From assembly GCA_021432635.1 (NCBI GenBank), contig MU270035.1, forward strand, positions 248,001-312,000: 64,000 bases of DNA, read 5' to 3'. The notes below the pieces were generated by a model. That model was not told where the DNA came from. It saw only the letters and a program-made list of their open reading frames with translations, and ran no database searches. The translations under genes were made by a program, and so were the position numbers. Below, piece by piece: positions 60,517 to 64,000 of the stretch. Positions within the stretch are counted from its first letter, which is position 1, and each line of letters starts with the position of its first letter. Source of the DNA: Thozetella sp. PMI_491. Its lineage: Eukaryota; Ascomycota; Sordariomycetes; Chaetosphaeriales; Chaetosphaeriaceae.

Positions 60517-63500
60517 ATGTTCCGGAACGCCATCCGACAGTCCTCGCGTGCCGTGGGCGCTCTTTCTGCCGCGAGCAGAATCGCCTCGGTGAGTCTCCCT
60601 CCGCCCAGCCGAAGCGACCTCAATTCCATCGAACATGGCTCGAAAACAATCTCAATGGCTTCGCTGAGCCTTCCCCGAGCTCAATTGGGCGTTTTGCACC
60701 GGTGCGAGGGGCGGTGGCGAGCTTTTAAGAGCTCTTCGAGAGCTGCTTGGTGCCAATTGAGGTCTTCGTCGGAACTCGGCTAGGCTAACAGTCTCTGCAG
60801 CGAAATGCCGCACCCGCCTCGATCGCCTTCCAGACCCGGTCGTTCGCCGACGCGAAGGCCTCACCAACCGAGGTCTCTTCCATCCTCGAGCAGCGCATCC
60901 GCGGCGTCCAGGAGGAGTCCAACCTCGCCGAGACCGGCCGCGTCCTCTCTGTCGGGTACGTGTTTATGCCTCAGCCGGGGTTCCTTGGCATCCAGCACAC
61001 AAATCTGCAACACCGACCGTGCCGACCGTGGTGATCAATTGAAGACGCCAACCACCACGCACGAGAGCTATATAACTGTGTGCTGACTTTTCGTGCTCAA
61101 TAGTGATGGTATTGCCCGTGTGCACGGCATGGCCAATGTCCAGGCCGAGGAGCTCGTCGAGTAGGTGTACCCCCTACCTTCCGGACCCGGGCATCCGGGA
61201 TCGCCGCATCAGCCATCTAACCAAAGGACAGGTTCGCTTCTGGCGTCAAGGGCATGTGCATGAACCTCGAGGCCGGCCAGGTCGGTGTCGTGCTTTTCGG
61301 TTCCGACCGTCTCGTCAAGGAGGGCGAGACCGTCAAGCGTACCGGTGAAATCGTGAGTGCTCTGCCGGACGGTCATTTTAGTTTGGTCGTATATTGCGAT
61401 ATTGACACAGTCAGGTGGATGTCCCCGTCGGCCCCGAGCTGCTCGGACGTGTCGTCGATGCCCTCGGCAACCCTATCGATGGCAAAGGCCCCCTCAACGC
61501 CAAGGAGAAGCGCCGCGCCCAGCTCAAGGCCCCTGGCATTCTTCCTCGCCAGTCTGTCAACCAGCCCGTCCAGACTGGTCTCAAGTCCATCGATGCCATG
61601 GTCCCCATCGGCCGTGGCCAGCGTGAGCTGATCATTGGCGATCGTCAGACCGGCAAGACCGCCGTCGCTCTCGATGCCATCCTCAACCAGAAGCGGTGGA
61701 ACAGCGGCAACGACGAGACCAAGAAGCTGTACTGCATCTACGTCGCCGTCGGCCAGAAGCGTTCCACTGTTGCCCAGCTCGTCAAGACCCTCGAGGAGAA
61801 CGATGCCATGAAGTACTCCATCGTCGTTGCCGCCACCGCCTCGGAGGCTGCTCCCCTTCAGTACATCGCTCCCTTCACTGGTTGGTGTTGCCCTTTTCCT
61901 TTCGTACCTTCTTTCCTTTTCATTTCGTACTTTCCTTAAGTTAGGTTATTGCCCCCAGCAGGTTGTTGCCCCCAGCGGGTGTCCGGGGTGCTCCTGTCCT
62001 CTGTGAGACCTCTGCGGAGGATCATGGCTCATGCATTCCCGCCATGTCGGCTTAAATAGCCATCATGGCCTGCTGCCTATGTGGTTGCGGGCTGTCCTCC
62101 CAACAGAATTCGCTCAGAATTCGCCTTGAACCAGCCCAGAACTCAGAACATCACTCGACCTGCCGGCCTCTCTGCCCGCCTGAAGAATGAATTGGTGGCC
62201 AGTAATCGAGTTCATCGATGCCCTCACCTGGTGTACGGTTCACACTGAAGCCCCGGAGTCGTATGTTTGCCCTATCTACAAGCTCGTCCTCAGCGAGGAG
62301 TCCTATGAGGGAATATGCACCGCCACGCCACTCAGCTTCGCTCCCGGCCTGGAGGACGTCGTCAATGCCTCGTCCCCCCCCAGCATCGAGTTTTTCTCTC
62401 GCCTCCCTGCTCTGCCTGCTAGTGTGTGGGCGATATATGCCCTCCTGCTAGAAAAACCCGATGCTGAGCCTAGGCTCTACATTGGCTCTGGCACTAATGC
62501 CCAGAGTGGCGCGGCGGCCCGGTTTCAAGACTACGACAAGCTCAAGCATCTTCCTCGCTTCGTTCAGCAAGCTATCGACTCAGGCTTCACCATCACCAGC
62601 CGTGGCCCCCTATGTTGGGCTCCTATCCCGCCCCAAGAGTTGATTCCTTCCGCCAGAGTTCGCTTCTTCGCCCTGGAGGCCGCCCTATGCTTTCTCTTCT
62701 ATGCTGGTTTCGAAACCAAGCTAGATGCATTCTGGACTGTTTTCCTGCCGTGGACACGCGATACCGTGAGCTGGCGACCCCTATGCAGCCATACACCACT
62801 CATGGAGCGCCCGCATGGCGCTGATGATGCCACCATGACACCTGAGCAGCTCAAGCATTATGCTGCAGAGCGCAAGCGACGCACCAAGGAGCTCATGGCC
62901 GTGAACTCCAAACGTGCTGAGGATAGGGAGCGTGCCCAAGACCTCAACGCCTACCTAGCCCGCAAACGTGCCGAGAAATACGATTGGGATCAGAGAAACA
63001 AGGATCGTGTTCACGATACCGCCGCCGGTGTCAGAGCCCGTGCTATCGCTTCTAAGCGATTCACGTGCACGACTTGCGACATGTCCCTGCAGTCCATAAC
63101 GGCACTCAACAAACATTTCAACACCAAGAGCCATCACGAGGCTCTGCGGCTCGCCGCAGGCGGGGAGGCCAAGCCAGTATCAGCTGCTACTATACGGTCC
63201 CGAAAGTTTGCCGCTGCTAGCAAGAAGAACATGCGTTTCCATTGTTCTCCATGCGACAGGTCGTTCAACATCAAGGGCCACCTGGACAAGCACCGCACCA
63301 CCAAGAAACATCTTCAGAAAATCGCCGAAGCCGGCGCATAGCCTCTGATAGTGCACGCATCCATCTTGGTATCAATTGCTAACCCAAATTCTTAACTTGT
63401 TAGGCGCGTCAATTGCTGAGTGGTTCCGCGATTCTGGGCGCCATGCCCTTGTCGTCTACGACGATCTGTCCAAGCAGGCCGTGGCCTACCGTCAGATGTC

Positions 63501-64000
63501 CCTCCTTCTCCGTCGTCCCCCCGGACGTGAGGCTTACCCTGGTGATGTCTTCTACCTGCACTCTCGTCTCCTCGAGCGTGCCGCCAAGATGAACAACAAG
63601 CTCGGCGGTGGCTCCATGACTGCCCTGCCCGTCATTGAGACCCAGGGTGGTGATGTGTCTGCCTACATTCCCACCAACGTCATTTCCATCACCGACGGTC
63701 AGATCTTCTTGGAGTCTGAGCTGTTCTACAAGGGTATCCGACCGGCCATCAACGTCGGTCTGTCTGTGTCTCGCGTCGGTTCCGCTGCCCAGCTTAAGGC
63801 CATGAAGCAGGTCGCTGGTTCGCTCAAGCTTTTCTTGGCCCAGTACCGTGAGGTCGCTGCCTTCGCCCAGTTCGGTTCCGATCTTGATGCTGCCACCAAG
63901 CAGACCCTCAATCGTGGTGAACGCGTAAGTGCTTCTCTCCAGGCCCTGTTATGTCAGGGGCAGCGGATGCAAAATGATTTGTTGCGCGTGATTAGATCGC
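60517..64000 (+). CDS. ATP1: Mitochondrial F1-ATP synthase subunit alpha, 5' part (3' end outside window)
   Basis: The nuclear gene for the regulatory alpha subunit of the F1 catalytic head. Exons read here: 60517-60588, 60801-60955, 61104-61160, 61232-61352, 61415-61880 and 63404-63924; the window ends in the next intron. 464 codons are visible. The N-terminus ([16 protein letters not shown]...) is a basic, acid-poor presequence with QTRSFAD near the cleavage site. Core motifs: [23 protein letters not shown], the P-loop [39 protein letters not shown] and the family signature [17 protein letters not shown]. Every junction keeps frame. Introns 1-4 are 212, 148, 71 and 62 nt, whereas intron 5 is 1,523 nt and carries a separate ORF. 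The junction across it restores [14 protein letters not shown]. Confidence 0.96.
61943..61976 (+). repeat. 17-bp tandem repeat near the 5' border of the intron insertion
   Basis: AGGTTATTGCCCCCAGC is followed directly by AGGTTGTTGCCCCCAGC, 16 of 17 identical. It starts where a normal-sized intron would have ended, so it may mark the insertion border. Confidence 0.75.
62052..62059 (+). promoter_or_regulatory. possible TATA element of the intronic ORF
   Basis: TTAAATAG lies in GC-rich sequence about 130 bases before the ATG of the nested ORF. An independent promoter would be needed for expression unless the unspliced host transcript is translated. A short upstream frame begins at the ATG at 62023 and stops within this element. 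Confidence 0.3.
62104..62125 (+). repeat. 11-bp tandem repeat in the intron insertion
   Basis: CAGAATTCGCT is followed directly by CAGAATTCGCC, in the leader about 60 bases before the intronic ORF. Confidence 0.7.
62187..63341 (+). CDS. GIY-YIG-like nuclease with two C2H2 zinc fingers, nested in ATP1 intron 5
   Basis: A complete intronless 384-aa ORF on the host strand. The first 75 residues match nothing I know. A GIY-YIG-like nuclease core spans about 80-170: WAIYALL (82-84 in the GIY position), RLYIGSGT (YIG at 98-100), Arg112 in AAARFQDYD as the catalytic Arg candidate, and Glu164 in FALEAAL as the metal-binding Glu candidate. PLCWAPIP and LCSHTPL follow. Residues 217-290 are highly charged and probably helical. 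Two zinc fingers of C-x2-C-x12-H-x5-H type end the protein (C294, C297, H310, H316 and C353, C356, H369, H375), a spacing typical of matrin/JAZ-like nucleic-acid-binding fingers. The combination of nuclease and DNA-binding module is that of a homing endonuclease. GC-rich nuclear codon use argues against recent transfer from mitochondrial DNA. I recall similar GIY-YIG plus C2H2 hypothetical proteins in fungi, but no named function. Confidence 0.8.
   Translation: MNWWPVIEFIDALTWCTVHTEAPESYVCPIYKLVLSEESYEGICTATPLSFAPGLEDVVNASSPPSIEFFSRLPALPASVWAIYALLLEKPDAEPRLYIGSGTNAQSGAAARFQDYDKLKHLPRFVQQAIDSGFTITSRGPLCWAPIPPQELIPSARVRFFALEAALCFLFYAGFETKLDAFWTVFLPWTRDTVSWRPLCSHTPLMERPHGADDATMTPEQLKHYAAERKRRTKELMAVNSKRAEDRERAQDLNAYLARKRAEKYDWDQRNKDRVHDTAAGVRARAIASKRFTCTTCDMSLQSITALNKHFNTKSHHEALRLAAGGEAKPVSAATIRSRKFAAASKKNMRFHCSPCDRSFNIKGHLDKHRTTKKHLQKIAEAGA

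Follow-up and report, generated by a model that had tools for sequence, protein, structure and literature searches.

The 64,000-nucleotide stretch analyzed here (the window; contig MU270035.1 of the ascomycete Thozetella sp. PMI_491, positions 248,001 to 312,000) stops inside the nuclear gene ATP1, which encodes the alpha subunit of F1-ATPase and lies on the plus strand. Removal of its six introns, the last of which ends just beyond the window, yields an F1-alpha protein of 551 amino acids. In order, the introns measure 212, 148, 71, 62, 1,523, and 95 nucleotides (nt), the fifth being far longer than the other five (62–212 nt). Intron 5 contains an intact open reading frame (ORF) for a zinc-finger protein that is likely a GIY-YIG-like nuclease, and a homologous ORF interrupts the same aligned codon of ATP2, the gene for the F1 beta subunit. 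The features of the ATP1 locus are as follows.

60517-60588, 60801-60955, 61104-61160, 61232-61352, 61415-61880, plus strand: ATP1 exons 1-5 (spliced model, alignment)
61881..63403, plus strand: ATP1 intron 5, 1,523 nt, GT-AG, phase 1 in Gly291 (G/GC)
62187..63341, plus (host) strand: intron-borne ORF, 384 codons and a stop (ORF list, Markov test)
62412..62711, plus strand: GIY-YIG-like core, residues 76-175, with A82-I-Y84, Y98-I-G100, R112, and E164
62751..62792, plus strand: conserved stretch W-x-RDTV-x-W-x-PLCSH, residues 189-202, the first part of which also occurs in a decayed copy discussed below
62841..63050, plus strand: charged region, residues 219-288, predicted to form a single long helix (low to middling model confidence)
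63060..63134, plus strand: C2H2 zinc finger 1, residues 292-316 (profile match)
63243..63311, plus strand: C2H2 zinc finger 2, residues 353-375 (profile match, pair alignment)
63379..63383, plus strand: CTAAC, a match to the branch-site consensus, 25 nt upstream of the intron 5 acceptor end
63404..63924, plus strand: ATP1 exon 6, which continues the spliced alpha subunit
63415..63432, plus strand: GCTGAGTGGTTCCGCGAT, exon sequence immediately downstream of the insertion, with similar counterparts in ATP2 and VMA1; it may belong to a recognition site
beyond the window, to position 312283 of contig C21, plus strand: ATP1 last exon (spliced model)

Both ORF-bearing introns have canonical spliceosomal donor and acceptor sites, with GT-AG termini and a CTAAC branch consensus. 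The ATP1 intron starts with GTTGGT, a less typical donor than the GTGAGT of ATP2, and ends in TTAG. The spliced alpha sequence aligns without a gap at the long-intron junction to the best-matching alpha chain in the PDB (2xok, which we take to be the yeast protein). A group I or group II intron signature was found in neither ORF-bearing intron (no Rfam match at E<=1), and there is therefore no sign of a self-splicing intron; for a group I ribozyme as the host intron, the GT-AG ends with their branch consensus speak against it as well. An earlier, sequence-only reading of this DNA had placed a nuclease-like zinc-finger ORF in a spliceosomal intron of nuclear ATP1. This placement is correct, and the boundaries that it gave for the 1,523-nt intron and its intact 384-codon, host-strand ORF are exact. 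The ORF starts 306 nt into the intron and ends 62 nt before the intron end. Its origin as a read-through of the ATP1 frame was considered and rejected, the host frame reaching a stop 18 codons past the interrupted Gly codon.

The search for paralogs in introns of other conserved genes, which the same reading had proposed, was productive. The genome of this fungus (72.3 Mb, 157 contigs) contains one other full homolog, an intact ORF of 385 codons that is 38% identical to the ATP1-intron ORF. It sits in the fifth intron of ATP2, which is 1,387 nt long and has GT-AG ends, while the remaining four ATP2 introns measure 70–94 nt. The two ORF-bearing introns split the same codon pair, Gly291 of ATP1 and Gly273 of ATP2, among 486 aligned codons; in terms of target-gene specificity, this places both full copies found in this one genome at a single aligned codon position. 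Once a second copy had entered ATP2, the chance of its landing at that codon would be about 1/486, and ATP2 is itself one of thousands of genes. Since a single ATP1 and a single ATP2 were found, both introns must presumably be spliced if the cell respires. It should also be noted that two short introns, intron 2 of ATP1 (60956-61103) and intron 2 of ATP2 (L005:2233-2317), are separated by 4 aligned bases (nt 182 and 178).

Both ORFs appear to have been maintained over a long time, because their synonymous sites are saturated (proportions of synonymous and nonsynonymous differences, pS 0.77 and pN 0.46) and none of 300 neutral simulations run to 40% identity stayed stop-free. Identity of the pair at codon positions 1, 2, and 3 is 0.48, 0.58, and 0.34. 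The ORFs are also longer than any in randomized introns: 384 codons versus a longest of 282 among 2,000 first-order Markov randomizations of the ATP1 intron, and 385 versus 339 in 2,000 random versions of the ATP2 intron. A dead remnant or chance ORF, with a fortuitous likeness to a nuclease in an intron that is merely long, would agree with the missing GIY-YIG profile match described below, but it is already contradicted by the ORF-length and simulation results and by the existence of two intact homologs at one aligned codon, and we regard it as highly improbable.

A decayed copy of the ORF family (L004:3073-3466, contig C21, minus strand) is located about 0.8–1.2 kb 3' of the ATP1 stop codon. 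This relic, on the strand opposite to ATP1, carries fingers 1 and 2 in separate reading frames, followed by an out-of-order WTRDTV piece; its main stretch is 74% identical to the ATP1 ORF in DNA. With two pieces pooled, relic and ORF differ at 32 of 69 synonymous sites versus 56 of 222 other sites (P 0.0015; for the first piece alone, P 0.07), a substitution pattern suggesting that the protein was once under constraint. The interval from ATP1 to the relic includes, at L004 ~2674-2870, a run of N and then the unit AGGGCCAGT repeated in tandem.

Intactness and constraint of both copies would equally be expected of an immobile pair of host genes, in which a domesticated zinc-finger DNA-binding protein resides in the ATP1 and ATP2 introns and, for example, coordinates alpha and beta expression. 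The two zinc fingers suit such a role, as do the hosts, whose products are present in equal numbers in F1. A regulatory role, however, leaves the identical codon unexplained; the catalytic-type residues Y, Y, G, R, and E are all kept despite 38% identity, and the decayed copy is located downstream of ATP1 rather than within it. In our opinion, this explanation is unlikely.

At one aligned codon, within introns with clean splice signals, lie two intact ORFs that belong to a single family and share the conserved motif residues and the fingers; from these we infer nuclease activity, a cleavage site, homing, and a jump between the genes. We consider it probable that introns 5 of ATP1 and ATP2 are a related pair of spliceosomal homing introns residing in the nuclear genome of a cellular organism. 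Each likely encodes a GIY-YIG-like nuclease that also has a long basic linker and a pair of C2H2 fingers. Such an arrangement points to selfish elements that occupy a conserved site and are spliced out by the host.

Several results weigh against this interpretation, the first of which concern the insertion site. The introns are one base apart in phase (aligned nucleotides 781 versus 782), and their ends are not notably alike, ranking 5th of 91 intron pairs at the 3' end and 12th at the 5' end. Homologous splice ends common to both introns are thus a candidate that this comparison does not support. The phase difference would suit a pre-existing ordinary intron in the Gly codon of both genes, one of which caught the ORF, with recombination rather than nuclease targeting moving it to the other; the two second introns 4 aligned bases apart likewise indicate that near-coincident introns occur in both genes. 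Yet alpha and beta separated before eukaryotes, which makes a shared old intron at the site unlikely, the intron ends have no clear homology, and VMA1 has no intron there. We therefore hold such a history to be improbable.

Further adverse results concern the nuclease assignment. PF01541 (GIY-YIG) is not listed for the ORFs at E<=10, although filters may drop weak matches; mean pLDDT (predicted local distance difference test) is near 50 in both AlphaFold2 models; a Foldseek search gave nothing at E<=0.001; and the hhalign probability of the ORF pair against an I-TevI-like profile is 1.9%. That profile was built from 11 of 13 I-TevI-like loci, with L043 and L044 left out as apparent duplicates of L042, and its controls scored 37.6% (SLX1-like), 38.5% (DenA), and 96.8% (Seg group); the ORF alignment spans 42 columns by default and 91 at a looser setting. 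An earlier profile of eight T4 proteins gave the ORF pair a score of 15.5, matched by 2 of 200 shuffles, and is uninformative because the SLX1-like positive control failed too (only 13.0). Scans of Pfam, PHROGs, and NCBIfam returned zinc-finger families and weak matches, GIY-YIG being absent, and residues 62-215 alone, like their ATP2 counterpart, matched no Pfam family. Among the 60 of 80 matches listed for a sequence profile against the PDB, most were zinc fingers and a few were weak antibody chains, with no GIY-YIG protein. The genome as a whole has two PF01541 matches. The only one above the cut-off is an SLX1-like gene (L024, contig C27:467067-467273, minus strand; 46.5 bits); the other, at C26:207189, was taken as chance (20.2 bits, one internal stop).

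Nevertheless, the elements of the superfamily motif are present, with the expected spacing, in both copies: (A/G)IY, with A in the ATP1 copy and G in the ATP2 copy, then Y(I/L)G, R112, and E164. Y84, Y98, G100, R112, and E164 are identical in the two, and only I99 is replaced, by L in ATP2. Moreover, the best VIA-align match, obtained with a low-confidence model as the query, is a GIY-YIG homing endonuclease of the I-TevI type. The best 50 VIA-align rows for the full-length model were mainly long helices and zinc fingers, with no GIY-YIG entry recognized; this says little, because helices and fingers filled the list. The motif, the order of fold elements, and the low-confidence model thus make GIY-YIG-like nucleases the likely identity of both ORFs, in the absence of a significant profile match. 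Of the features named by the sequence-only reading, YIG, Arg112, and Glu164 stand and recur in ATP2 apart from I99, and the two zinc fingers exceed the curated cut-off (zf-C2H2_jaz, 28.6 bits over two stretches; cut-off 22.6), whereas its GIY-YIG core is likely on the grounds of motif, fold order, and a low-confidence model, not of a profile match.

The proposed homing cycle would start with recognition by the nuclease of highly conserved exon DNA around the TG-x-x-x-AE-x-FRD codons. The enzyme would cut an allele without the ORF-bearing intron, repair from the occupied allele would copy the intron in, and the host spliceosome would remove it from the transcript, so that ATP synthase remains unharmed. 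The ATP1 and ATP2 copies would descend from a common ancestor, the element having once jumped from one of these two paralogs to the other. The similar DNA of their catalytic domains would have enabled this jump and the homologous site would have aimed it, after which each copy may have specialized on its own gene. As to that site, the best 20-nt window of ATP1/ATP2 exon DNA starting within 10 nt of it ranks 25th of 1,439. For the 20-nt stretch centered on the site, conservation is unremarkable (rank 1,065 of 1,439), the similarity being confined to the 3' side, which also counts against the proposal; some GIY-YIG enzymes, however, bind long, one-sided sites, and one-sided conservation is therefore compatible with targeting.

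The eight PF00006 matches in the genome correspond to four rotary-ATPase loci, which we take, by their sequence features, to be ATP1, ATP2, VMA1, and VMA2. VMA1 holds the same protein motif, TG-ITLAEYFRD, and is intron-free there. In VMA2, which was left out of all alignments, the motif is absent, and a short intron lies about 8 codons upstream, as read by eye. VMA1 (L023, contig C6, minus strand) also has a 121-nt GT-AG intron between VIVYVG and CGERGNEM, the position of the yeast VMA1 intein; its length leaves no room for a long ORF, and the LAGLIDADG families PF00961 and PF14528 have no match in this genome.

If the interpretation is correct, ordinary protein-coding genes of the nucleus can house a homing element, with the spliceosome replacing a ribozyme or intein of its own. 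This would provide a concrete, testable route for the gain and spread of spliceosomal introns, and the presence of the pair at one codon of both the alpha and the beta gene would constitute a natural experiment on how a nuclease picks and changes its target. We lean slightly toward the wider proposition that spliceosomal homing introns have a family of their own in the nuclear genomes of cellular organisms, and that one of its lineages tracked a single conserved codon across the F1 alpha/beta duplication, with a separate cognate enzyme for each gene.

Relatives of the ORF family were not confirmed in the viral contigs or the bacterial and archaeal genome contigs searched. Among the papers listed in the literature searched, as judged by titles, starts of abstracts, and selected passages, with bioRxiv and most subscription papers outside it and known fungal atp-1/atp-2 introns not looked up, there was no fungal nuclear case; outside the mirusvirus paper cited below, the term "shintron" occurred in a single paper, which has a title on titanium surfaces and was taken as unrelated.

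Among known systems, I-TevI has an N-terminal nuclease core, a linker, a zinc finger, and a DNA-binding tail. The ORFs share this general plan, and the best VIA-align match, with I-TevI and other group I GIY-YIG endonucleases (T4 td; fungal mitochondria), but they have no significant sequence similarity to them, and the ATP1 host intron looks spliceosomal rather than ribozymic. The VMA1 intein of yeasts (PI-SceI) likewise homes to a rotary ATPase subunit, at a conserved site of the nucleotide-binding domain. It differs from the ATP1/ATP2 pair in that it is removed at the protein level, encodes a LAGLIDADG nuclease, and occupies a different codon. Intein sites a and b are distinguished (PMC2814812), the VMA1 intein of yeasts belonging to site a. 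Group I introns in nuclear ribosomal DNA (rDNA) bring genes for His-Cys homing endonucleases into the nuclear genome, but their setting is group I and rDNA, and spliceosomal introns interrupt the nuclease gene there, whereas the ATP1 spliceosomal intron contains it (PMC9548176). Introns of the Faustovirus capsid gene carry GIY-YIG ORFs within a conserved gene, and some may be spliceosomal; these are viral, however, with non-canonical splice sites, and 5 of 12 are group I (PMC6247863).

The closest parallel is provided by the spliceosomal homing introns, or shintrons, of mirusviruses, which received that name in November 2025 (PMC12768974); the lifestyle that the sequence-only reading set apart from known nuclear homing elements therefore now has a precedent. 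Mirusviruses have 334 intron-harbored endonuclease genes, 132 of them GIY-YIG; these are canonical GT-AG introns with no group I/II signature, carry genes for GIY-YIG, HNH, or other endonucleases, and target conserved core genes (PMC12768974). The ATP1 and ATP2 introns share the GT-AG ends and the missing group I/II signature, likely encode GIY-YIG-like nucleases, and likewise lie in conserved core genes. Mirusvirus shintrons reside in viral genomes (PMC12768974), whereas the ATP1/ATP2 pair resides in cellular nuclear genes, encodes C2H2 fingers, and occupies the same codon of two paralogs. If confirmed, the pair would extend viral shintrons to cells; we regard it as a real and unusual case, probably the cellular, paired, same-site version of a spliceosomal homing intron.
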